Positions 6,343-61,236 of a stretch of 64,000 nucleotides of DNA are shown here, one piece after another. Both the position numbers and the translations under genes were made by a program. Each line of letters begins with the position of its first letter. Within the stretch, counting starts at the first letter, position 1. Source of the DNA: Candidatus Nitrospira nitrificans (GTDB lineage: Bacteria > Nitrospirota > Nitrospiria > Nitrospirales > Nitrospiraceae); assembly GCF_001458775.1 (NCBI RefSeq), contig NZ_CZPZ01000012.1:310001-374000 (forward strand), written 5' to 3'. The notes under the pieces are model-generated. The model ran no database searches, was not told the DNA's origin, and was given only the letters and a program-made list of their open reading frames with translations.

Positions 6343-7074
6343 ATGAAATTTGTCTGTCTCAACTGCGAAACCTATATGAGTCTCGAGAAGGTGGAGAAGC
6401 CGGAGGAGGGATCGCTCGGCGTCTTTTTCGCGTGCCCTTCTTGTAGCGCGAAATTCTCGATGGTGACGAATGTCGGCGAAACGAACATGATGAATGCGTT
6501 GGGCCTGAAGCTAGGCGCGAAGTCCGCGCCGGACGCGTCCATGGAAGGGTTGCGGGCTCTTGCGGGAAACGGTCAAGCCGCTCCTGCTGCGACTAAACCG
6601 GCGGTATCGATGCCGGCTGTTTCCGCAGCCGCTGCGTCTCCGGCGAAGGCTCCTGAAAAGGCCAGTGGGTGTCCATTCTCCGCGATGGTGGCTGAGATGG
6701 GGCTGACGGCCGGAGGAAAGCCCGCGAACGGCGGATCTGCCGAGTCTGAATTCGCCTGGACGCCGGACGCGAAGGAGAAACTCGACCGGCTTCCGGCATT
6801 CGTGAAACCGATGGTTCAGGGTAGCGTGGAGACCTACGCGCGTAAACAAGGGTTTAAGACCATCACCCTTCAAGTGATGGACGATTCGAAGAATGATTCG
6901 CCTGACGGGATGACGTGGTCGCGGGAGGCCGAGCAACGCCTGGAAAATATTCCGGACTTCATCCGTCCGATGGCTCGAAAAGAGGTTGAACGGCTGGCCA
7001 AGGAACGGGGGGCGTCGACCGTCACCGCGCAAGTCATGGATGAAGCGAAAGACAAGTTCATGAAGTTCATGTAA
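6343..7074 (+). CDS. zinc-ribbon protein with two PCP-reductase-like domains
   Basis: The N-terminus is a four-cysteine knuckle (Cys5, Cys8, Cys31, Cys34: CLNC...CPSC), likely zinc-binding. A low-complexity Ala/Pro-rich linker (about 50-130) with a lone CPFSAM segment follows. Two ~45-residue helical units begin FAWTPDAKEKLDRLP (Trp139) and MTWSREAEQRLENIP (Trp192). Each continues as PxFV/IRPMxxxxVExxAxxxGxxTIT, the pattern of the C-terminal domain of protochlorophyllide reductase subunit ChlB/BchB (Pfam PCP_red). The protein lacks any catalytic ChlB part. The function is unknown. A strong terminator follows at 7098, so it is probably monocistronic. Related units occur at 21 kb, 55.8 kb and 57.2 kb. 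Confidence 0.85.
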   Translation: MKFVCLNCETYMSLEKVEKPEEGSLGVFFACPSCSAKFSMVTNVGETNMMNALGLKLGAKSAPDASMEGLRALAGNGQAAPAATKPAVSMPAVSAAAASPAKAPEKASGCPFSAMVAEMGLTAGGKPANGGSAESEFAWTPDAKEKLDRLPAFVKPMVQGSVETYARKQGFKTITLQVMDDSKNDSPDGMTWSREAEQRLENIPDFIRPMARKEVERLAKERGASTVTAQVMDEAKDKFMKFM

Positions 7075-7133: not shown

Positions 7134-7166
7134 TAATGGGGGGTGGTTCTGCAAAAGGGTTCAGAT

Positions 7167-7922
7167 ATGAAGTGGGGTGGTTCTCTGCTGTTTGTGTTGG
7201 CCCTTACGTGCGTGCTCTTTACTTGGCCTACGACTGTGTGCGCCCAATCGGCCCTGGAACATCAACGAGCTTCCCCTACGACGGATACGACACATCATGC
7301 CCATGGGACAGAGGGAGGCGGGGGTTGGGAGGGGTCGGCAGAAGGCATCGCCTATTCGGAGTTCAATCATCACCTGGCCGGTCTTTGCGATGTGCTATTT
7401 GGATTTGCAGAGTTAGGGTATGCGTTGCAGTATCCGATGCCCGTATGGACTCGCCTTGCCCTACCGACCGCCCTCGGTTTCATAGGGAGCTATCTATTGA
7501 TTTGGAGCGACCATGACGCTTGGCCGATCGGGTCTCTCGGGTTTCATGAAACGTTTTTCGGCCAAGACCTGGAAATCGTCGAGCACAAGTTTTATGGAGT
7601 TCTTGCCGCGATCATAGCCTTGTGTGAGGCGCTACGCCGATTCGGGTGGGTTCGGCATCCGGCCTGGGCAGCTCCACTGATTCTCTTCGTTCTCGTTGGG
7701 GGGCTATTGTTGTTCGTCCATTCACACGGGAATCACCCCGGCAGTGCGAGGATCGAATTTCACCATGCGCTCTTGGGGAGTGTGGGTGTCGGTGCGGCCT
7801 TGTCGAAGGGCCTGGCATCGTGGTTACCCGGTGTCTCACCCCGTATCGTGAAACGGTGGGAAATTGCCTGGGCGGGGTCCGTGATCCTCTTTGGTCTTCT
7901 GCTTCTCATCTATTCCGAATAG
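7167..7922 (+). CDS. secreted/multi-pass membrane protein, function unknown
   Basis: The 251 residues begin with a signal peptide (MKWGGSLLFVLALTCVLF, likely cleavage after VCA near residue 25). A His/Gly-rich stretch (TTHHAHGTEGGGG) follows, then about five membrane helices: LALPTALGFIGSYLLIW, FYGVLAAIIALCEALRR, APLILFVLVGGLLLFV, FHHALLGSVGVGAALS and AWAGSVILFGLLLLIYS. Scattered histidines near helix ends (HETFFGQ, EHKFYG, HSHGNHPG, FHHALL) suggest metal or haem ligation, but no family was recognised. ATG 7167 has AAAGGG at SD distance and gives a clean signal peptide, unlike the GTG at 7143. Confidence 0.75.
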   Translation: MKWGGSLLFVLALTCVLFTWPTTVCAQSALEHQRASPTTDTTHHAHGTEGGGGWEGSAEGIAYSEFNHHLAGLCDVLFGFAELGYALQYPMPVWTRLALPTALGFIGSYLLIWSDHDAWPIGSLGFHETFFGQDLEIVEHKFYGVLAAIIALCEALRRFGWVRHPAWAAPLILFVLVGGLLLFVHSHGNHPGSARIEFHHALLGSVGVGAALSKGLASWLPGVSPRIVKRWEIAWAGSVILFGLLLLIYSE

Positions 7923-8057: not shown

Positions 8058-8816
8058 ATGGGTGGACATAGTCACTGGTCCACGATCAAACGGCACAAAG
8101 GGGCCCAGGACGCGAAGCGCGGAAAGATCTTCACGCGAATCATTCGGGAGCTCACCATTGCGGCTCGGTCCGGTGGTGACCCTGACGCTAATCCCCGACT
8201 GCGTCTGGCGATCGCCAAGGCCAAGGAAGCCAATATGCCTGGCGATACGATGAAGAAAGCCGTTCAGCGAGGGACGGGGGAATTGCCTGGTGTGATGTAC
8301 GAGGAATTTCAGTTAGAAGGATATGGCCCCGGAGGGACCGCGCTTCTTCTGGAAATTACGAGCGACAACAGGAACCGGACCGTCGCGGAAATACGCAGCC
8401 TCCTCACGAAAAATCATGGCAATATGTCGGAGGCGGGCGCCGTCGCCTGGCAGTTTCAGAAGAAGGGGCTTGTGGCAATTGAGAAGGGGAAGGTCGAAGA
8501 GGATGCGCTGCTTTCGTTGGCTCTCGACGCCGGCGCGGAAGACGTGAAAGTCGGCGAGAAGAGTTATGAGGTGCTCACCAGTCCTCACGATTTCGAGGCG
8601 GTGAAGAAAGCGTTGGTCGATGCCAAGATCGACACAGCCTTGGCTGAGATCACCTTCATTCCGCAGAACACGATCCGCCTGGACGAGAAATCAGCCGAAC
8701 AGATGCTCAAGCTGATGGAAATTTTGGATGAGCACGATGATGTGCAGAAAGTTCACGCGAATTTCGACATCCCGGACGAAATCATGGAGAAGGTCGCCGC
8801 GACTGCGGCGGGATAA
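8058..8816 (+). CDS. YebC/PmpR family DNA-binding regulatory protein
   Basis: The 252-residue protein begins MGGHSHWSTIKRHKGAQDAK, the hallmark N-terminus of the YebC/PmpR/TACO1 family. It continues with LRLAIAKAKEANMPGDTMKKAVQRGTGE and YEGYGPGG-type segments (here EGYGPGGTALLLEITSDNRNR). Members act as transcriptional regulators or, in the YebC2 branch, help ribosomes on polyproline-like stalls. ATG 8058 has a strong GAGGAGGG upstream; the ORF extends further but without family similarity. The gene precedes ruvA, a common arrangement (yebC-ruvC-ruvA-ruvB), though ruvC is not between them here. Confidence 0.93.
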   Translation: MGGHSHWSTIKRHKGAQDAKRGKIFTRIIRELTIAARSGGDPDANPRLRLAIAKAKEANMPGDTMKKAVQRGTGELPGVMYEEFQLEGYGPGGTALLLEITSDNRNRTVAEIRSLLTKNHGNMSEAGAVAWQFQKKGLVAIEKGKVEEDALLSLALDAGAEDVKVGEKSYEVLTSPHDFEAVKKALVDAKIDTALAEITFIPQNTIRLDEKSAEQMLKLMEILDEHDDVQKVHANFDIPDEIMEKVAATAAG

Positions 8817-8863
8817 TTGATCGGCTCATCAACATCGTCATGTCACTCGGATAACACAACGAC

Positions 8864-9472
8864 ATGATCGCCTTTCTCACGGGGCGGTTGGCATTCAAAG
8901 CACCCACCCACCTCACGCTCGATGTGCAGGGGGTCGGGTATGAAGTCCATATTCCACTCAGCACCTATTACGCCCTGCCGAATCTTGGCGAAGTCGCCGC
9001 GCTGAATATCCATACGCATCTCCGCGAAGATGCGATCCAGCTGTTCGGCTTTCTGTCGCAAAGCGAGAAGGAATCGTTTTTGCTGCTGACCAGCGTGTCG
9101 GGGATTGGCCCGAAGCTTGCGCTGAGCGTGCTCTCGAGTTTGCCGATCATCGAGCTGGTCCATGCGATCCAAACCGAGGATGTCGACAAGCTGGCGACCG
9201 TTCCAGGCATCGGTAAGAAATCAGCGGGCCGCATCGCGCTGGAACTGAAAGATAAGGTCGGAAAAATCCAGGGAGGTTCGCCTCGGCTTGCGACCGCTGA
9301 TACCTCCGCCGTGGATGGTCCGTATGAGGACGCCCTCTCGGCTCTGATAAACTTGGGCTATCGTCCTCAGGATGCCAAGGAAGCCTTGAAGCGAGTCACC
9401 AAGACGGCAACAGGCTCTCTGGCACTGAAGGAGCTCATTCGTGAAGGGCTCAAGGAGCTTGGAAGGGGGTAA
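8864..9472 (+). CDS. ruvA: Holliday junction branch migration protein RuvA
   Basis: RuvA binds four-way DNA junctions as a tetramer and loads the RuvB motor in recombinational repair. The 202 residues include the start MIAFLTGRLA, the OB-fold GVGYEVHIPLST, and two helix-hairpin-helix motifs (VSGIGPKLALSVLSS and VPGIGKKSAGRIALELK). The flexible linker and C-terminal RuvB-binding domain follow (DALSALINLGYRPQDAKEAL). Length is typical. A cysteine-rich secreted protein starts 5 bases after the stop, inside the ruvA-ruvB pair. Confidence 0.97.
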   Translation: MIAFLTGRLAFKAPTHLTLDVQGVGYEVHIPLSTYYALPNLGEVAALNIHTHLREDAIQLFGFLSQSEKESFLLLTSVSGIGPKLALSVLSSLPIIELVHAIQTEDVDKLATVPGIGKKSAGRIALELKDKVGKIQGGSPRLATADTSAVDGPYEDALSALINLGYRPQDAKEALKRVTKTATGSLALKELIREGLKELGRG

Positions 9473-9476
9473 GCTG

Positions 9477-9965
9477 ATGTCATTCAACGCAAAGAATGGT
9501 GCCCAACTATTCCTGTGCAATGGTTTGATGGGGATTGCACTTATGGTCACGGCGCCACCGGCGGGGTTTGCAGACGAGGCCCCAGCGCCCAAGAGCATCA
9601 GAATGACCTGTGGAACCTGTCCGGAGGGGTATGCGACGACCGGCATCACCCAATCTCCGGAAATCTGTAAAGACGGCGATCCGACGCTCGTGCAATGTGT
9701 GCCGTTGGGAGCGAATATACTGGGCGTGTGCGGATCTTGCCCTGAGGGATATGCCGAAATCGGCGGTTCCTCAGTCCCTGCTCGGTGCGGGAACAAGGAT
9801 AATGGTCGGCTGTCGCAATGCCAGTTGAGGAAAATGGAGCAGAATTTTCCGGACTCGACCCAGGGATATAAGAGGTGTCCTCCTGATTGCGGCAGCGCGG
9901 CCCAGCCTGGTCAGGGCGCTTTTCCGCCGCCGCCGAAGTATCAACCGATGCCGGAGGGTCAGTAG
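9477..9965 (+). CDS. cysteine-rich secreted protein between ruvA and ruvB
   Basis: This is a 162-residue predicted exported protein of unknown function. The signal peptide runs to about residue 33 ([23 protein letters not shown]). The mature part has two similar units, each with C(G)x[22 protein letters not shown] and [16 protein letters not shown]. Further cysteines ([26 protein letters not shown]) and a Pro/Gln-rich tail follow. The paired Cys spacing suggests disulfides or metal binding. ATG 9477 has GGAAGGGGG at SD distance; the GTG at 9441 lies inside ruvA. It is translationally close to ruvA and 16 bases before ruvB, so it is co-transcribed with a DNA-repair pair by position only. Confidence 0.78.
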
Positions 9966-9981
9966 GGATGGGGGTCGTATC

Positions 9982-10986
9982 GTGACCGAACGGGTGGTGA
10001 CCAATCGCGCCACGGACGAAGAGCGGGGTCAGGAGAACGTTCTTCGACCTCAGACGCTGGATGAGTACGTCGGCCAAGAGAAAATGAAGGCATCGCTTCG
10101 AGTGTGCATCGAAGCGGCCAAACAGCGGGGCGAGGCTCTCGACCATGCCATTTTCTACGGACCGCCCGGTCTCGGAAAGACGACGATCGCTCACATTATC
10201 GCGAAAGAAATGGGCGCGGCCTTGCGGTCGACGTCAGGGTTGGTCTTGGCCCATGCCGGGGACTTGGCGGCGATTCTGACCAATCTCCAAGAATATGATG
10301 TGCTCTTTATCGATGAGATTCACCGCTTGCCCGCTTCTGTTGAGGAAGCGCTGTATCCGGCCATGGAGGATTTTCAGCTTGATCTGGTCATTGGACAAGG
10401 ACCGGCCACGAGGACGGTCAAACTTGATCTGCCGCCCTTCACACTCGTGGGCGCGACGACCAGGGCCGGTTCTTTGACGTCCCCGCTGCGGGATCGATTC
10501 GGTTTAGTCTATCGGTTGGAGTTCTATGGGCCGTCCGAGCTGGAGTCGATTGTGATGCGCTCGGCCGGGGTCTTAGGTGTCGGGATTGATCGGGCAGGTG
10601 CCGCGGAAATATCACGCCGTGCCCGTGGAACACCACGGATTGTCAATCGGCTGATTAAGCGCATCAGAGACTATGCTCAAATTAAGGCGGACGGGCATAT
10701 TACAGAGCAAGTGGCTAAGGAGGGATTAGCCTGGGTCGGGATCGATGAGGCGGGTTTCGACGACATGGACCGCAAAATCCTTCTCACGATCATCGAAAAG
10801 TTCAATGGGGGACCGGTCGGAGTGGAGTCCTTGGCAGCCGCTGTCCAGGAAGACAAGGGCACGATCGAAGATGTGTATGAGCCCTACCTGATCCAAGCCG
10901 GCTTCCTGGATCGGACCGGTCGTGGCCGGCAAGTGACTCGCTTGGCCTATGATCACTTGAAGCGGCCCTCTCCCTTGTTGATGTAA
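9982..10986 (+). CDS. ruvB: Holliday junction branch migration DNA helicase RuvB
   Basis: RuvB is the hexameric AAA+ motor that drives branch migration with RuvA. The 334 residues carry the start region [19 protein letters not shown], Walker [10 protein letters not shown], Walker [10 protein letters not shown], sensor 1 VGATTRAG and arginine finger region PLRDRFGL. The winged-helix end carries [13 protein letters not shown]. Length and motifs are complete. The start is GTG 9982. The cysteine-rich ORF upstream separates it from ruvA by about 0.5 kb. Confidence 0.97.
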
Positions 10987-20998: not shown

Positions 20999-21024
20999 CG
21001 ATGGCCGGGTTGAAAAGGAAACCA

Positions 21025-22026
21025 ATGTCGGCATCAGATTCTTCGCAGGCGAATACCACGGACATCCGCTGGACCGATGATGCCCTCAAACGCATGGAGC
21101 GCGCCCCGATATTCCTGCGTGGCATGGTCCGTCGCTTGGCTGAAACGAAAGCGCGAGAATTGGGGTACGAGGAAATCACCGAGGAGATTCTCGAGCAGTT
21201 TAAGGGACAGATGATGGGACGCATGGGCGGCGACGCCGGCATGGCCTCCGCCGTCGAAGAGATGGCCAATGGTCGCCTTCCATGGACCGCCGCCGCGAAA
21301 GAACGGTTGGGTACGGTGCCCGAATTCATGCGCGCGATGATCAAACAGATCACGGAAGAAGTTGCGAAAGAACGGGGGCATCTTGAGGTCAACGTCGAAT
21401 TATTTGAAAAGGTGGAAGCCCTCGGTGACTTACAGGAGGCCCACGGGCCGGCGATGGAATGGACTGAAGCGGCAACGGCGCTACTCCAAGACAAATTAAA
21501 GGAGTCTCCGCCCATCGCAATGGAATTTGTGACGGACATGCTGAAGCGAGACAGTGAGGATCTGGCCAGAGAGCGGGGGCTTGTCCGCATCGATGAGCAG
21601 ATCCTGCATGAACTCTGGCAAGCACCGCAGGAGCGCATGGCATGGACGGATGAAGCCTGGAAACGGCTTCAAACATCTCCTGATTTCGTGCGCAGCGGGA
21701 TCAGGAAGGCAGCTGAACGGCGAGCTCGTAAGCTGGGGTTGAAAGAAATCGATTCAGACCATCTGACGACGTTTCGGAATCAGGCCATGATGAAAGCCGT
21801 GAAGCGTATCCGTTCATTCGGTTATCATGAACTGACATTTGATGCCTTTGAAACCGCCTTGAAGAAAACCAAGCGCCTGCAGGGGAATGATCAGGCGGAA
21901 AAACGCCTTCAGGAAATCCGGGGACATTTTGCTGATCCGTCGGCTAAGAAACCTGAAGGCGGAACCCTGGGGGCCGAGCTCATGGATCGTTTCCGCAAGT
22001 ATCTCAAGGGCGAAGGAACACTCTGA
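21025..22026 (+). CDS. protein made of four PCP-reductase-like repeats
   Basis: The 333 residues consist almost entirely of tandem helical units. Each starts W(T)xxAxxRLxxxPxFxRxM and ends AxExGxxEI: Trp16 (RWTDDALKRMERAP), Trp87 (PWTAAAKERLGTVP), Trp146 (EWTEAATALLQD, degenerate) and Trp207 (AWTDEAWKRLQTSP). A worn fifth unit (KAVKRIRSFGYHELT) follows. The pattern is that of the PCP_red domain at the end of ChlB/BchB, but there is no nitrogenase-like catalytic part and no cysteine. ATG 21025 has AAAAGGAAACC upstream; ATG 21001 has no SD. It directly follows the IHF gene. Function unknown. Confidence 0.82.
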   Translation: MSASDSSQANTTDIRWTDDALKRMERAPIFLRGMVRRLAETKARELGYEEITEEILEQFKGQMMGRMGGDAGMASAVEEMANGRLPWTAAAKERLGTVPEFMRAMIKQITEEVAKERGHLEVNVELFEKVEALGDLQEAHGPAMEWTEAATALLQDKLKESPPIAMEFVTDMLKRDSEDLARERGLVRIDEQILHELWQAPQERMAWTDEAWKRLQTSPDFVRSGIRKAAERRARKLGLKEIDSDHLTTFRNQAMMKAVKRIRSFGYHELTFDAFETALKKTKRLQGNDQAEKRLQEIRGHFADPSAKKPEGGTLGAELMDRFRKYLKGEGTL

Positions 22027-55163: not shown

Positions 55164-55673
55164 CTATTGATGCAGGTGTTTCATCGCGGCGGCGCAGAGG
55201 ACGATGAAGAACCCCATCCAGAGGGCGGCGCGCTGGAAGGGGATGGCCTCATAGGACTCCCCCTCATCGGCCTCGTCGTCTGCCTTGAAAATGACCGTGT
55301 AGAGGAACAGTGTGAGGAGCCCCAGCACGAGAAGAAGCTTGATCATGAAGACCATGAGATACTTGGAGTGGTGCTGGATCCCGTTCCCCGTTTGTGACGT
55401 GATGACCTGATTGACGTAGTGGAGATTCACGCCGCCGGTGAACAGCAGGACGACTACGAGAATGCCGGCGACTTTCTTGTAGTGTCGGTAAAAAATATCC
55501 GTGATGGGTTTGATCTGATCCTTGGGAACGGCCTTCTCCAGCCCGGGTGTCACCGCCATCACGAGAAACGCCAAGCCGCCGATCCAAATAATCGCTGAAA
55601 GCAGATGTAACCAGTGGTTGACGATCGGAATGAGGATATTGAGATCGGTGGTGATACTTTGGAGAGCATCCAT
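55164..55673 (-). CDS. CopD-like four-helix membrane protein
   Basis: A 169-residue integral membrane protein with four helices. The first carries NHWLHLLSAIIWIGGLAFLVMA, with a His-Trp-x-x-His pattern and WIGG as in the CopD/PcoD family (copper uptake or cytochrome-like). Others are KKVAGILVVVLLFTGGVNL, MVFMIKLLLVLGLLTLFLYTVIF and LWMGFFIVLCAAAMKHLH. The family's copper role is not established for this branch, and haem ligation is also possible. It precedes the radical SAM gene on the same strand direction after 95 bases. Confidence 0.75.
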   Translation of the reverse strand: MDALQSITTDLNILIPIVNHWLHLLSAIIWIGGLAFLVMAVTPGLEKAVPKDQIKPITDIFYRHYKKVAGILVVVLLFTGGVNLHYVNQVITSQTGNGIQHHSKYLMVFMIKLLLVLGLLTLFLYTVIFKADDEADEGESYEAIPFQRAALWMGFFIVLCAAAMKHLHQ

Positions 55674-55768: not shown

Positions 55769-57154
55769 TTAACGGTCAAACTTGAAAACAGGTGCGTCAT
55801 TGCCGAATCGTTTCTTGCGCAATTCCTCCATCAATTCAACGGTGATGAGCTGCACATTGTTTTCGCGGGCATGCTTCTCCACGCCTTTCTTCACCATGGC
55901 GCGTAGGAAGTAGGGGATACGGCTCAATCTGAGCGCGGATGCGTCGTCCCACGTGACGTCGGTCTCTTCCGCGACATTGAACGCTACCTTGATTTTTTCG
56001 CCGCCTTTCGGGGTATAGAGGCACCACTGATCTTCATCCAGCCAGTCACCATGGTCGACATAGGGACGGGCGCGGCACCCCCCGCAGATGTCGGTATATT
56101 CGCAGTCCCCACATTTCCCCTTGAGTTGTGGATAGCGGAAGGAATTGAAGACATCCGATCGTTCCCAGAGATCGGCGAAGCTCTGTCGGCGGATATTCCC
56201 TGCCGACAGCGGCATATAGGGACAAGGGGTTAACTCACCGTTCGGCGTCACCCGGGCGTAGTTGGTGCCTGCCAGGCATCCTCCCCCCATGTATCCGGTC
56301 GCCTTCGTGATCGGAGAGTTGGGGTCCTTCTCATAGGCCAACCGTTTGAAGTGCGGGGCGCAACGGGCGCGGACCAGCATGCCCTTGTAATTATCTTGGC
56401 AGTCGACGAGGTAGCCAAGGACCTCTTCATACTGCGCGGGCGTGATATCCGTCAGCTCCTCGCCACGTCCCGTGCACACCATAAAGAATACGTTCAGGAC
56501 GCGGGCGCCAAGTCGGTGCGCCCAGTCAATGACCTCGGGCAGTTCCCGATAGTTCATCGGCTGCGCGCTGAAATGCACTTGAAATTGGAGGCCATTCCGC
56601 TTGCTGGCTTCAATGCCGGCTATCGCGGCCTCCCACGCGCCTGGAACGCCACGGAAAGCATTGTGCTTGGCGGGGTCCAATGAATCAATGCTGATACCCA
56701 CACCCATCACGCCGATTTCCACAAGAGTTTTGGCCATCTGGTCGTCAATCAGCATCCCGTTTGTGCCGAAGACCACCATAAAGCCGAGTTTGACGGCGTA
56801 CCGAGCAATGTCAAGAATGTCAGGACGCACCAATGGTTCGCCGCCGGTAATGACGAGAAGACACCCCTTATTCACTTCTGCGATCTGCTCGATGAGCCGG
56901 TAGCACTCTTCAGTGCTCAGCTCATCGTCCCCGCCCGCTGCTTTGGTCGTCGCATCAAGATAACAGTGGTTGCATTTGAGGTTGCAACGTTTGGTCAGGT
57001 TCAGCGCAACGAGGTAGGGTTTAAAGTCGTCAACCGTCCGCCCATCGAACGGTCCGTCCCCCTTTGGAACGGGGGTGAAGAACTGGGCGATTTGTTGCTG
57101 CAAGGAGCCCAAGGCGCCCGAAGGACCGTTGAAGATGGGAAGCGATTTACCCAT
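55769..57154 (-). CDS. SPASM-domain radical SAM protein with C-terminal PCP-reductase-like domain
   Basis: The 461-residue enzyme has the radical SAM cluster motif CNLKCNHC (Cys57, Cys61, Cys64), GGEPL (104-108) and a SPASM region of Cys-rich twitch type (GGGCLAGTNYARVTPNGELTPCP, then CGDCEYTDICGGCRARP). It resembles NirJ/AhbC/AhbD-type haem-modifying enzymes, an inference from the overall pattern. After residue 395 follows a PCP_red-like unit: TWDDASALRLSRIPYFLRAMVKKG (Trp402), then LITVELMEE. The ending fuses a small helical domain to an unrelated catalytic core. It lies downstream of and next to the double-USP PCP protein, which also carries this domain. Confidence 0.85.
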   Translation of the reverse strand: MGKSLPIFNGPSGALGSLQQQIAQFFTPVPKGDGPFDGRTVDDFKPYLVALNLTKRCNLKCNHCYLDATTKAAGGDDELSTEECYRLIEQIAEVNKGCLLVITGGEPLVRPDILDIARYAVKLGFMVVFGTNGMLIDDQMAKTLVEIGVMGVGISIDSLDPAKHNAFRGVPGAWEAAIAGIEASKRNGLQFQVHFSAQPMNYRELPEVIDWAHRLGARVLNVFFMVCTGRGEELTDITPAQYEEVLGYLVDCQDNYKGMLVRARCAPHFKRLAYEKDPNSPITKATGYMGGGCLAGTNYARVTPNGELTPCPYMPLSAGNIRRQSFADLWERSDVFNSFRYPQLKGKCGDCEYTDICGGCRARPYVDHGDWLDEDQWCLYTPKGGEKIKVAFNVAEETDVTWDDASALRLSRIPYFLRAMVKKGVEKHARENNVQLITVELMEELRKKRFGNDAPVFKFDR

Positions 57155-57234: not shown

Positions 57235-59301
57235 TTACCCGCGTCCCTTTCCGGTGAGGTCGGCAATCATGTCCTTGAGATTGCCTGTCTTCATCGCTTC
57301 AGCCATATATTCTTTTGCCTGCTCGATCCCTTCATTGGCGACCTCAATCGTGATCAGGGTCGCGCCGATTTTCTCGGCATGCTTGAGAATCAGCGCCTTG
57401 GTGCAATCACGCATGAAGCCCTCCGGAGCCCGATCCAATCTGGCTTGTGCGTCGTCCGTCCAGGTATAGGGTGACGCGGCTTCGACATGACCGTTCGTCC
57501 CGTTCCCGTTCGCCGCCGCAAGGGTGGCTTCCGCGGCCGGCGAGGTGCCGGTGCCCTTGTTGGAGAAAATGGGTGTATAGTCTTCGGATGCGGCTTCTTT
57601 GATGACCGGCGCCGCATATTCGAGCGTGATGGTCGTCATGCCCAACTTCCGCGCGCTCTTTTCAATCCTGGCTTTCGCGCGTCTCCGCTGGAAGCCGGCC
57701 GGCACGACACGGATCGCTTCTTTCGCATCCTTGGTCCATTGCATCGGCACATCGTCGTACGCCACATCCGTTTCCAGTTCACCCTCGGCCGTCGCGGCTA
57801 CTTCGAAAATCTTTTTATCGACCTGTTTGAATCTCGTCCCATCCGCGCTGCACACCGGACATTTGACCGGGGCGTCACCCTTCCCGATATAGCCGCAGCC
57901 GTCGCAGACGAAATACGTTTGCCCCATACGATCCAGGTAGGCCTGTGTGGAGGCATTGATCTCTTTCGGCTTCTCCTCAACGATCTGGGTCATGATTCCG
58001 CTCAATGTCGGACCCATGAGATCTTTGGTCACGCCCTCATCGGCCTGCATCTTATCGCGGTCGATGCCCGCTGCGTCCAGATTGCCGCCAAGCGCGCGCA
58101 TGGCGTCCATGGCGCCTTTAGGCAGAATGTGTCCGACCGCGGCGTCAACGACGGTATTACTGATGATGGTGTGGCCTTTTTCGATGGCATACCGATGAAT
58201 GGCCGTCTTCGCCACGCCTCGCGCGAAAACGGGGATCTTTTCCATCCGCCGCAACGCTTCTTCCGTCCAGGCGATCGTGTACTCGGCCTGCGTATCGATC
58301 GGAGGCACGTATTTGCGGTTGGAGATCAGCACATTACAAGGGGCGCTCCGGAGCAGGTTTTCGGTGTTGCTGCCGACGTCCATGTCCTCGTCGCTATGGA
58401 CGCCGATGCGCCCGACGATGAGCAAGGCAGGGACATCTTTGCGGACGTACTGAATGATTTTTTCGAATGCTTTGCCGTCCAGCAACGTCGTTTTCACATC
58501 CGTTTGCTCGGCCTGGGCGATTTCTCGGGAAATGTCCAAATGAGACTGGTAGATCTTAGCCAAGCCGCTGTCGATGATTTCTTCGTGCAGTTTTTCTTGT
58601 TCCTTGAAGCGAAAGACTTTGCCGGCTTCTTCGTTAAGGACACCGGAAATACTGTGGAATGCCGCGTAGTGGAAATAGGGATCAAAGGCCGAAATCGCCT
58701 CCACCGGCATGTTGAAGGCCTTGCCGAGCGCCAAGCCGGTCATCAGCCCGCCGAACGAGTAGGGGCTGCCGTCGACGGCCACGACGATCTTTCCACCGGT
58801 TATGGGCTGAACGTTCTTGATGATCAGCATGTCGGAGTTACGGACCCGGCGGACCACGCGTTCGGTATTGCTGCCGATGACGCTGTCCTTGACCGCTCCG
58901 ACGCCCAAGGCGCCCATGATGACGAGGTCATACCCGTTGGTGTTGATGTCCTCGGCCAGCACCTTCCAGTTTCGTCCTTCGAGCGAGCGTCGCTCGACCG
59001 GGAGATTCGCTTCGTTACATTTCTTGTCGACGTAGTCGAGGTAGGAGTCCGTGATGATTTGGAGTCCTCGGGTGATCAGCGAATCGTGGATCTGGCGCTG
59101 ACGGTCAAGCTCCTTCTCGTCATGGTATTCCTCCGGGAGGCCCGCTTCCATCTGCTTGAAGCGTTTATCATGCATCTTCGCGGCGTAGACATGGCTTCCC
59201 ACGATCCTGGAACCGAAGGTTTTTGCCAAATGAACGCCGACATCCACCGCGGTATTCGAATGGTCGGAGTTATCGACCGGAATATAGATCGTCTTATACA
59301 T
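57235..59301 (-). CDS. tandem universal stress protein fused to rubredoxin-like knuckle and three PCP-reductase-like domains
   Basis: The 688 residues hold two UspA domains (about 1-165 and 170-330), each with an ATP-type motif G2xG9xGS: GALGVGAVKDSVIGS (130-144) and GRIGVHSDEDMDVGS (297-311). Then come a PCP_red-like unit (YTIAWTEEALRRMEKIP, Trp345) and a rubredoxin/zinc knuckle CDGC...CPVC (Cys466, 469, 481, 484). Two more PCP_red-like units follow (QWTKDAKEAIRVVP, Trp522; YTWTDDAQARLDRAP, Trp614). I know no characterised protein of this build. ATG 59301 has GGAGG at eight bases. A cytoplasmic ATP/redox-sensing role is only a guess. Confidence 0.85.
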   Translation of the reverse strand: MYKTIYIPVDNSDHSNTAVDVGVHLAKTFGSRIVGSHVYAAKMHDKRFKQMEAGLPEEYHDEKELDRQRQIHDSLITRGLQIITDSYLDYVDKKCNEANLPVERRSLEGRNWKVLAEDINTNGYDLVIMGALGVGAVKDSVIGSNTERVVRRVRNSDMLIIKNVQPITGGKIVVAVDGSPYSFGGLMTGLALGKAFNMPVEAISAFDPYFHYAAFHSISGVLNEEAGKVFRFKEQEKLHEEIIDSGLAKIYQSHLDISREIAQAEQTDVKTTLLDGKAFEKIIQYVRKDVPALLIVGRIGVHSDEDMDVGSNTENLLRSAPCNVLISNRKYVPPIDTQAEYTIAWTEEALRRMEKIPVFARGVAKTAIHRYAIEKGHTIISNTVVDAAVGHILPKGAMDAMRALGGNLDAAGIDRDKMQADEGVTKDLMGPTLSGIMTQIVEEKPKEINASTQAYLDRMGQTYFVCDGCGYIGKGDAPVKCPVCSADGTRFKQVDKKIFEVAATAEGELETDVAYDDVPMQWTKDAKEAIRVVPAGFQRRRAKARIEKSARKLGMTTITLEYAAPVIKEAASEDYTPIFSNKGTGTSPAAEATLAAANGNGTNGHVEAASPYTWTDDAQARLDRAPEGFMRDCTKALILKHAEKIGATLITIEVANEGIEQAKEYMAEAMKTGNLKDMIADLTGKGRG

Positions 59302-59533: not shown

Positions 59534-61156
59534 TTAACCGACCGAACTTGCTCGAGGCTCAGCTGTCTGGGGAGGAGAGTGGGTTGGTTTGCGCGAGCGG
59601 ATGATTTCCTCGATCGAAAGCAAGGCGTCCCGTCCGGAATTGCCTTCGATCCCTCTGCTGAGGTTTTGGTCGGCATAGGGTGGTTCTTCCGATGACTGGG
59701 ACAAGGATCCGGTCCATCGGCGGGGATCGCGGCTACCCTGTTTCCGTTCCCAGGCCCGGAGACAAGCCTTGGCGATAATCTTGTTGAGCGGGGCAGGGTT
59801 ATACAGCAGCTTCCTGATACTGGTCGGTGTCAGCATCAAGGGGTTATAGCCGGCCGACAAATATCCCTCTTCCAGTAGACGTTGTTCCAGGTCGGTATTC
59901 GGCTGGATGCCGAGGAAGAACATCAACGGGAAGACCCGCTCTTCCCCGAGGATCGCCGCCACCTTCTTATAGGCCTCCACGCTTTGGAGGAGGCTCTCTT
60001 CCGTTTCCTTGGGGCTATTGAGAGAGTAGTTCAGGATGACTTTCCCTTTGAAACCGGCTTCCGCCAGATACCGGCAGCCATCATAGAGCCGTTCCAGCTT
60101 GAAGCCCATGTGCAAATTGTTCAGCACCTCTTGGGAACCGGAGGTGATGGCGACTTCCAGATCGCCCACGCCGGACCGCACCATCAGCTTGGCGAGCTCA
60201 GGGGTAATCAACGAGGTTCTGATGTAGCCGGACCACTCGATCTCGAGCTTCTCCGCCACAATTCGCTCAAGAATTTCCGTGCATTGCGGATAGGCTTCCT
60301 TGCCCGTAATAAATTGGGCGTCCGTAAACCAGAACCGACGGGCGCCCCACTGATGGTAATGCTGCGAAATATCTTTGACGACCATCTCCGGTGGCCGGTA
60401 ACGCACCCGCTTGCCTTCAATGTAGGGGTAGAGGCAAAAGGCACAGTCGTACGGGCAGCCCCGCTTGGACTGCACGCCGATCGATTCCCCGATATAGTCC
60501 CCATATTGAGGAAAAATCGAGGTGAGATAAGGCAGATCGACCGTGAGCGCATCCAACAGCGCGGGGGAACCCTGCCGGCCTTTTCGGATCTGTTTGCCTT
60601 CTTTGACGATGTACCGCTCATCCTCGATCGAGCGGCCTTCAATGACCTTCAGGATGGCGTCTTCCCCTTCGCCAAGGATGCCGATCGTGCCTTCCGGGAG
60701 CTTTTCGATCAACTGATCGGCAAACGCCGTAAACGCTCCTCCGCCGATCATGATCTGGGCCTTGGGGAACTCCTTGCGGATCAGCGCCGGGTACGACAGG
60801 ATCGTATAGATGTGATTGTAATACCGGTAGAGCTGCTTCACGCCCGCGATGGAAGCGGTGACTCGCTTGAGAGGGTTGCTGGCAAAATAGAAATTAAAAG
60901 CATGCTCTAACGACGAATCGCCTTCATGCGGCGAAAAGATCTGAATGTCTCGCCATGAGAAGCAGACCAGGTCCGGCTTGAATTCCGTCGCCGCGTCGCG
61001 GATGGCTTGGCTGCGCTGCGCGACTGGAAACAACGAGAGATCGAGAATGCGCTGACGCACGTCCGGTTTCCGCCGATGAATAAAATCCGCCAGGTAGGTG
61101 ATCCCGATGGGGTAGACCTTCTTACAGGGGAGGAAGATATAGAGGATTGAGTTCAT
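59534..61156 (-). CDS. B12-binding-type radical SAM protein
   Basis: The 540 residues contain an N-terminal cobalamin-binding-like alpha/beta region (ILYIFLPCKKVYPIGITYLADFIHRR, then IMIGGGAFTAFAD and GILGEGEDAI). The radical SAM core follows, with CPYDCAFCLYP (Cys-x3-Cys-x2-Cys) and later RTSLITPELAKLMVRSGVGDLEVAITSGSQEVL. The architecture resembles the B12-binding/radical SAM class used for methylation or complex cofactor and natural-product steps. The substrate is unknown. ATG 61156 was preferred over TTG 61168. It lies downstream of and on the same strand as ubiE, and upstream of the USP-PCP fusion. Confidence 0.8.
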   Translation of the reverse strand: MNSILYIFLPCKKVYPIGITYLADFIHRRKPDVRQRILDLSLFPVAQRSQAIRDAATEFKPDLVCFSWRDIQIFSPHEGDSSLEHAFNFYFASNPLKRVTASIAGVKQLYRYYNHIYTILSYPALIRKEFPKAQIMIGGGAFTAFADQLIEKLPEGTIGILGEGEDAILKVIEGRSIEDERYIVKEGKQIRKGRQGSPALLDALTVDLPYLTSIFPQYGDYIGESIGVQSKRGCPYDCAFCLYPYIEGKRVRYRPPEMVVKDISQHYHQWGARRFWFTDAQFITGKEAYPQCTEILERIVAEKLEIEWSGYIRTSLITPELAKLMVRSGVGDLEVAITSGSQEVLNNLHMGFKLERLYDGCRYLAEAGFKGKVILNYSLNSPKETEESLLQSVEAYKKVAAILGEERVFPLMFFLGIQPNTDLEQRLLEEGYLSAGYNPLMLTPTSIRKLLYNPAPLNKIIAKACLRAWERKQGSRDPRRWTGSLSQSSEEPPYADQNLSRGIEGNSGRDALLSIEEIIRSRKPTHSPPQTAEPRASSVG

Positions 61157-61236
61157 GGGAGCCGTCAATCGTCAGTGGCCAATCGTGAAGAGCGCTCGTG
61201 CGTAACCGAATGACGTTTGACGAATGACCATTGGCG

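Follow-up and report, generated by a model that had tools for sequence, protein, structure and literature searches.

The stretch of Candidatus Nitrospira nitrificans DNA analyzed here (64,000 nucleotides of contig NZ_CZPZ01000012.1, hereafter the window) carries on its minus strand a gene that joins two universal stress protein (Usp) domains to three PCP_red domains and a rubredoxin-like knuckle and, downstream of it, a gene for a radical SAM (rSAM)/SPASM protein that has a PCP_red domain of its own; the features are listed in Table 1. The open reading frame of the fusion begins with ATG and is uninterrupted. The first-pass annotation was right about its coordinates and its description. The opposite strand of this gene holds an antisense open reading frame of 605 aa; homology and conservation all favor the minus strand, which by these measures is the coding strand. 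Scans for promoters and terminators around the gene stayed at chance level and are uninformative.

Table 1. Features of the fusion gene, its radical SAM partner and related genes in the window
Feature	Coordinates	Strand	Details and basis
Fusion gene, Usp-Usp-PCP_red-rubredoxin knuckle-PCP_red-PCP_red	57235..59301	-	688 aa; ORF + Pfam
Usp domain 1, residues 1-163	58813..59301	-	motif GALGVGAVKDSVIGS at 130; Pfam + fold match
Helical-hairpin insertion 1, residues 41-79	59065..59181	-	invariant H44 + H72; conservation + model
Usp domain 2, residues 170-328	58318..58794	-	motif GRIGVHSDEDMDVGS at 297; Pfam + fold match
Helical-hairpin insertion 2, residues 207-246	58564..58683	-	equivalent H211 + H239; conservation + model
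PCP_red domain 1, residues 345-388	58138..58269	-	54.3 bits vs cut-off 32.5
Rubrerythrin-type rubredoxin-like knuckle	57826..57912	-	C466/C469/C481/C484; Pfam RUBY_RBDX 464-492
PCP_red domain 2, residues about 522-561	57619..57738	-	41.0 bits vs cut-off 32.5
PCP_red domain 3, residues 614-655	57337..57462	-	34.2 bits vs cut-off 32.5
Radical SAM/SPASM protein, NirJ2/AhbD-like, C-terminal PCP_red	55769..57154	-	80 bp downstream of fusion
PCP_red domain of radical SAM partner	55817..55951	-	53.2 bits
CopD/DUF4149-like membrane protein, third cassette gene in class	55164..55673	-	Pfam + neighbor comparison
Four-fold PCP_red protein, apart from cassette in window	21001..22026	+	orthologue comparison

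The domains that had been read from the translation alone were all recovered by Pfam. Usp (PF00582) matches in two stretches (115 bits against a cut-off of 24, 4.4e-33), and the nucleotide loops of the two halves both have the form G2xG9xG[ST] and are intact. Each half also has one adenine-contacting aspartate (D10 and D177), invariant in 50 sequences, and to judge by loop motif and aspartate the fusion fits the ATP-binding subclass of Usps in both halves. The three PCP-reductase-like units proposed at residues 345, 522 and 614 correspond to three stretches of PCP_red (PF08369; 6.8e-32 at curated cut-offs), each of which is above the Pfam cut-off, and the four-cysteine knuckle proposed at 466-484 is matched by RUBY_RBDX (26.9 bits against a cut-off of 26.5). 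All 39 orthologues in which the knuckle domain is present keep its four cysteines, and their spacing, C-x2-C-x11-C-x2-C, is of the rubrerythrin type and not of the classical rubredoxin type.

Orthologues 83-97% identical to the fusion are present in 80 genomes of Nitrospira and its family (89% in N. moscoviensis and 87% in N. defluvii), and in a sample of 395 genomes, drawn from within Nitrospirota only, full-length and stop-free matches extend across genus, family, order and class down to ~60% identity. A chance origin is excluded, as relatives throughout the class are full-length and 60-97% identical. Between members of the family, identity is 94-96% in the Usp halves, 97% in PCP_red-1 and 82% in the knuckle but 64% in the linker that precedes PCP_red-3; the modules are thus more tightly conserved than the linkers. 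The first-pass annotation had reasoned that a split of the fusion into separate genes in relatives could mark it as an assembly or frame artefact. Such a split exists, as deeper Nitrospirota encode the tandem Usp alone beside a separate rSAM-PCP_red gene, and to this extent the outcome of the check is mixed, but the fused form is intact and free of internal stops in >100 independent assemblies, complete genomes among them, and the probability of an artefact is negligible. The split state instead belongs to a graded series. When architecture labels are placed on a maximum-likelihood tree of the Usp part (midpoint-rooted, with several weakly supported backbone forks), they run from U2 through U2-P/U2-PP and U2-P-R-P-P to U2-P-R-P-P-R(R)-P-P, where U2 is the tandem Usp, P is PCP_red and R is the knuckle. 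The tandem Usps of other families of the phylum are shorter than the Nitrospira fusion, the bare tandem Usp without knuckle or PCP_red sits near the base of the tree, and one group within the class reaches ~900 aa with one or two extra knuckles and two extra PCP_red domains. Given this series, the split in deep relatives is an ancestral or alternative state, and we infer from the tree that its direction was probably accretion rather than loss.

The rSAM gene, which the first-pass annotation did not mention, is an almost constant neighbor of the fusion. Of the 95 loci that offer enough sequence, 91 have it as the next gene downstream, on the same strand (counted with tblastn; 18 GTDB families by our own count), and in the other four it is missing from this place; one further locus (L137) has a CopD-like gene in its stead, and in two lineages (L159 and L160) the order of the Usp and rSAM genes is reversed and the genes still touch. 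Outside the class both genes are present in 29 genomes, the Usp only in 6, the rSAM only in 2 and neither in 195 (Fisher p 9.8e-29, a test that treats genomes as independent though they are phylogenetically related; some of the single-gene cases are fragmented assemblies). These counts use thresholds of E <=1e-30 for the Usp and E <=1e-130 for the rSAM, set by eye at gaps in the E-values. Adjacency and co-occurrence across the phylum together suggest that the fusion may be an accessory of this enzyme. They fit less well with the sensor of ATP and redox or metal state first proposed for the chain, drawn out here as a self-standing integrator in which ATP would be sensed by the Usp part and redox or metal state by the Fe(Cys)4 knuckle, with the PCP_red domains as relays to targets, for example in tuning respiration to low oxygen. 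That proposal can draw on the two intact ATP motifs, on the fold match to the mycobacterial tandem Usp Rv2623 and to ATP-bound TTHA0350, and on N. marina, in which low oxygen raises several Usps encoded beside electron-transport operons (PMC8115632; the fusion is not identified there as one of them). However, near-constant association with one enzyme throughout a phylum is more to be expected of an enzyme accessory than of a global sensor, and both the knuckle and PCP_red are missing from the form that branches nearest to the base; we regard a sensor of this kind as somewhat unlikely.

Each Usp half also carries a pair of histidines, a site that had not been listed among the features of the chain. 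Among tandem Usps linked to the rSAM, even those of only 30% identity, H44, H72, H211 and H239 are invariant and H302 is conserved as well; three other, ordinary Usps of the same genome do not have these histidines as a set. Alignment of one half with the other places H44 opposite H211 and H72 opposite H239. In the AlphaFold model of the fusion (mean pLDDT 77, lower around 210-240) the insertions form helical hairpins with helices 41-54/62-97 and 210-229/232-264 and turns centered near 58 and 225; since each pair lies in such a hairpin, its two histidines should, by this secondary structure, face each other. The obvious guess is that the two pairs form a duplicated site for a metal or heme.

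By its sequence, the partner belongs to the radical SAM/SPASM superfamily: the cysteines of its CxxxCxxC motif (C57, C61 and C64) and its SPASM cysteines (C293, C311, C348, C351, C357, C360 and C378) are invariant in 39 sequences. The best NCBIfam profiles are NirJ2 (324 bits) and AhbD (318 bits), with PqqE at 112 bits, and distant members rank the first two in the same way; both scores are below the curated cut-offs of 500 bits, which places the protein in neither family. NirJ2 and AhbD are tetrapyrrole side-chain enzymes of heme synthesis. Identity with AhbD was considered and rejected on the score (319 against 500 bits when taken in the present genome) and on the presence of ChdC-type proteins in the genome. 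There are three proteins of the chlorite dismutase / coproheme decarboxylase family (C31:220794, C12:27552 and C2:80680) and, besides these, a HemY-type oxidase; no heme step is therefore evidently missing, which counts against a role in making heme b. The solved structures closest to the partner are those of peptide or PQQ enzymes (PqqE, SuiB, SkfB and anSME), and no NirJ or AhbD structure is among its structure matches. These neighbors, together with the SPASM domain, would agree with an enzyme that modifies a peptide or protein. On the pattern of SPASM-type maturases, the Usp fusion could then be its substrate, its chaperone or a carrier resembling a leader, and the fusion's near-invariant Cys322 and invariant histidines could be the targets. 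The profile scores nonetheless favor tetrapyrrole enzymes over PqqE, PCP_red is otherwise known from protochlorophyllide reductase, and L169 and L172 have an adjoining gene for a protoporphyrinogen oxidase, so peptide or protein modification seems to us unlikely.

The wider neighborhood bears on the substrate. In L164, L165 and L167 the four-fold PCP_red protein is encoded between the rSAM and CopD/DUF4149-like genes, and in L172 it forms a single chain with rSAM-PCP_red, the next gene being a protoporphyrinogen oxidase (304 bits against a cut-off of 97.85). L169 and L172 belong to one family, in which a protoporphyrinogen oxidase-type gene lies close to Usp / PCP_red genes. In L180 the Usp-rSAM pair is directly downstream of Cyt_bd_oxida_I, two cytochromes c and EB_dh/cytochrome c genes, and L178, L179 and L181 have the same gene clusters; such bd-like oxidase and cytochrome c genes beside the pair in deep lineages are in line with a respiratory cofactor. 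The deep-lineage clusters resemble a set reported from Nitrospira, the alternative NxrC / bd-like clusters, to which no role has been assigned (PMC6606698). In Nitrospira itself no oxidase gene adjoins the pair, and in the present genome a fifth PCP_red protein is encoded just upstream of subunit I of a cytochrome bd-like oxidase. In this region (L198:6863-7408 and 8571-10448, contig C36) the protein, which has a cysteine-rich N-terminus and two PCP_red domains, is located between a DUF420 membrane protein and the oxidase. PCP_red modules repeat and move between proteins, and bd-like oxidases lie next to one PCP_red protein and, in deep lineages, next to the entire pair. This could also mean that PCP_red is a generic docking module here and that the cassette does no chemistry on tetrapyrroles, its task being to assemble or protect bd-like respiratory complexes, but the catalytic cysteines of the rSAM are intact and the rSAM is the most conserved partner, and we judge this quite unlikely.

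Several other genes were noted in passing. The window encodes a cysteine-rich protein with two PCP_red domains (6343-7074), followed by a histidine-rich membrane protein with no Pfam match (7143-7922). Deep Nitrospirota have a conserved protein of 220-240 aa, with no Pfam match, near the Usp-rSAM pair and beside the rSAM where that is present (L180:9540-10256 and relatives in L173, L177, L178, L179 and L181). Upstream of the fusion is a B12-binding radical SAM protein (59534-61168) whose best profile is the cyanobacterial slr0320 high-light acclimation family (448 bits against a cut-off of 775); a conserved operon with it was considered and rejected, as the arrangement occurs in 67 loci, mainly near the genus, and in only two deep ones.

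Our best explanation, held tentatively, is that the fusion is the Nitrospira form of a tandem Usp that serves an rSAM/SPASM enzyme related to NirJ2 and AhbD. With the same reserve we take it to be an ATP-binding accessory protein of a radical-SAM system for the maturation of tetrapyrroles or respiratory cofactors; the evidence suggests that the pair serves some step of heme or respiratory-enzyme maturation, and we infer from it the chemistry, the tetrapyrrole substrate, the formation of a complex and the role in respiratory cofactor maturation. Under this explanation the PCP_red modules, which occur in the Usp and rSAM proteins and in the four-fold PCP_red protein alike, would keep these proteins together or pass on a tetrapyrrole. 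The Usp part would bind ATP and would use its histidines to bind a metal or heme, while the Fe(Cys)4 knuckle would carry electrons or report redox state; the cassette as a whole would produce or insert a modified cofactor of the heme type, destined for bd-like respiratory complexes. Against it stand the scores of the rSAM below the NirJ2 and AhbD cut-offs, its structural closeness to peptide and PQQ enzymes, the position of the Nitrospira pair away from any oxidase gene, and the five loci without the expected adjacent rSAM. A bolder version, which we consider quite unlikely, would be a new radical-SAM route to an unrecognized heme variant (or to its insertion) for the atypical bd-like oxidases of Nitrospirota, in which the Usp, with its duplicated bis-histidine site, would act as a carrier that binds ATP and heme or metal, and PCP_red would be a general tetrapyrrole handler outside photosynthesis.

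Few proteins of unclear function are as widespread as Usps, and the near-fixed enzyme partner and duplicated histidine site make a concrete biochemical role for one of them testable. Nitrospira are nitrite-oxidizing bacteria found worldwide; the fusion is present throughout this main nitrite-oxidizing genus, whose respiratory chain runs on poorly understood bd-like oxidases. The non-phototrophic Nitrospira genome has about a dozen copies of PCP_red, which makes this domain alone a poor marker of phototrophy. In PMC12815261, PF08369 is counted with the Pfams most prevalent in known phototrophs and serves, together with others, to pre-screen for phototrophy.

Every single domain of the fusion is known, whereas the combination, the near-fixed rSAM partner and the duplicated histidine site seem to be undescribed: the open-access literature searched (on Usp with rubredoxin, PCP_red or protochlorophyllide reductase in Nitrospira) gave no description of any of the three, which agrees with the remark in the first-pass annotation that no protein of this build was known to it. 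Like the tandem Usps Rv2623, TTHA0350 and UspE, the fusion has two Usp domains per chain, the ATP-loop motif and the same fold, and to these it adds the helical-hairpin insertions with their histidine pairs, the PCP_red and knuckle modules and the nearly fixed rSAM; against the UspE equivalog it scores 22 bits (cut-off 227). Its PCP_red domains match the solved C-termini of BchB as well as Asr4154, whereas the nitrogenase-like core of BchB/ChlB is absent and the host is non-phototrophic, and with the BchB equivalog the C-terminal domain alone aligns (67 against 509 bits). The knuckle matches the C-termini of rubrerythrin and nigerythrin, but Pfam finds no di-iron four-helix domain in the fusion, and the rubrerythrin equivalog scores 19 against 200 bits. 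Finally, NirJ2 and AhbD are the best two profiles for the partner over its full length and have the radical SAM and SPASM cysteines in common with it; it differs from both in scoring under their curated cut-offs, in its extra C-terminal PCP_red domain and in having a Usp as its partner.
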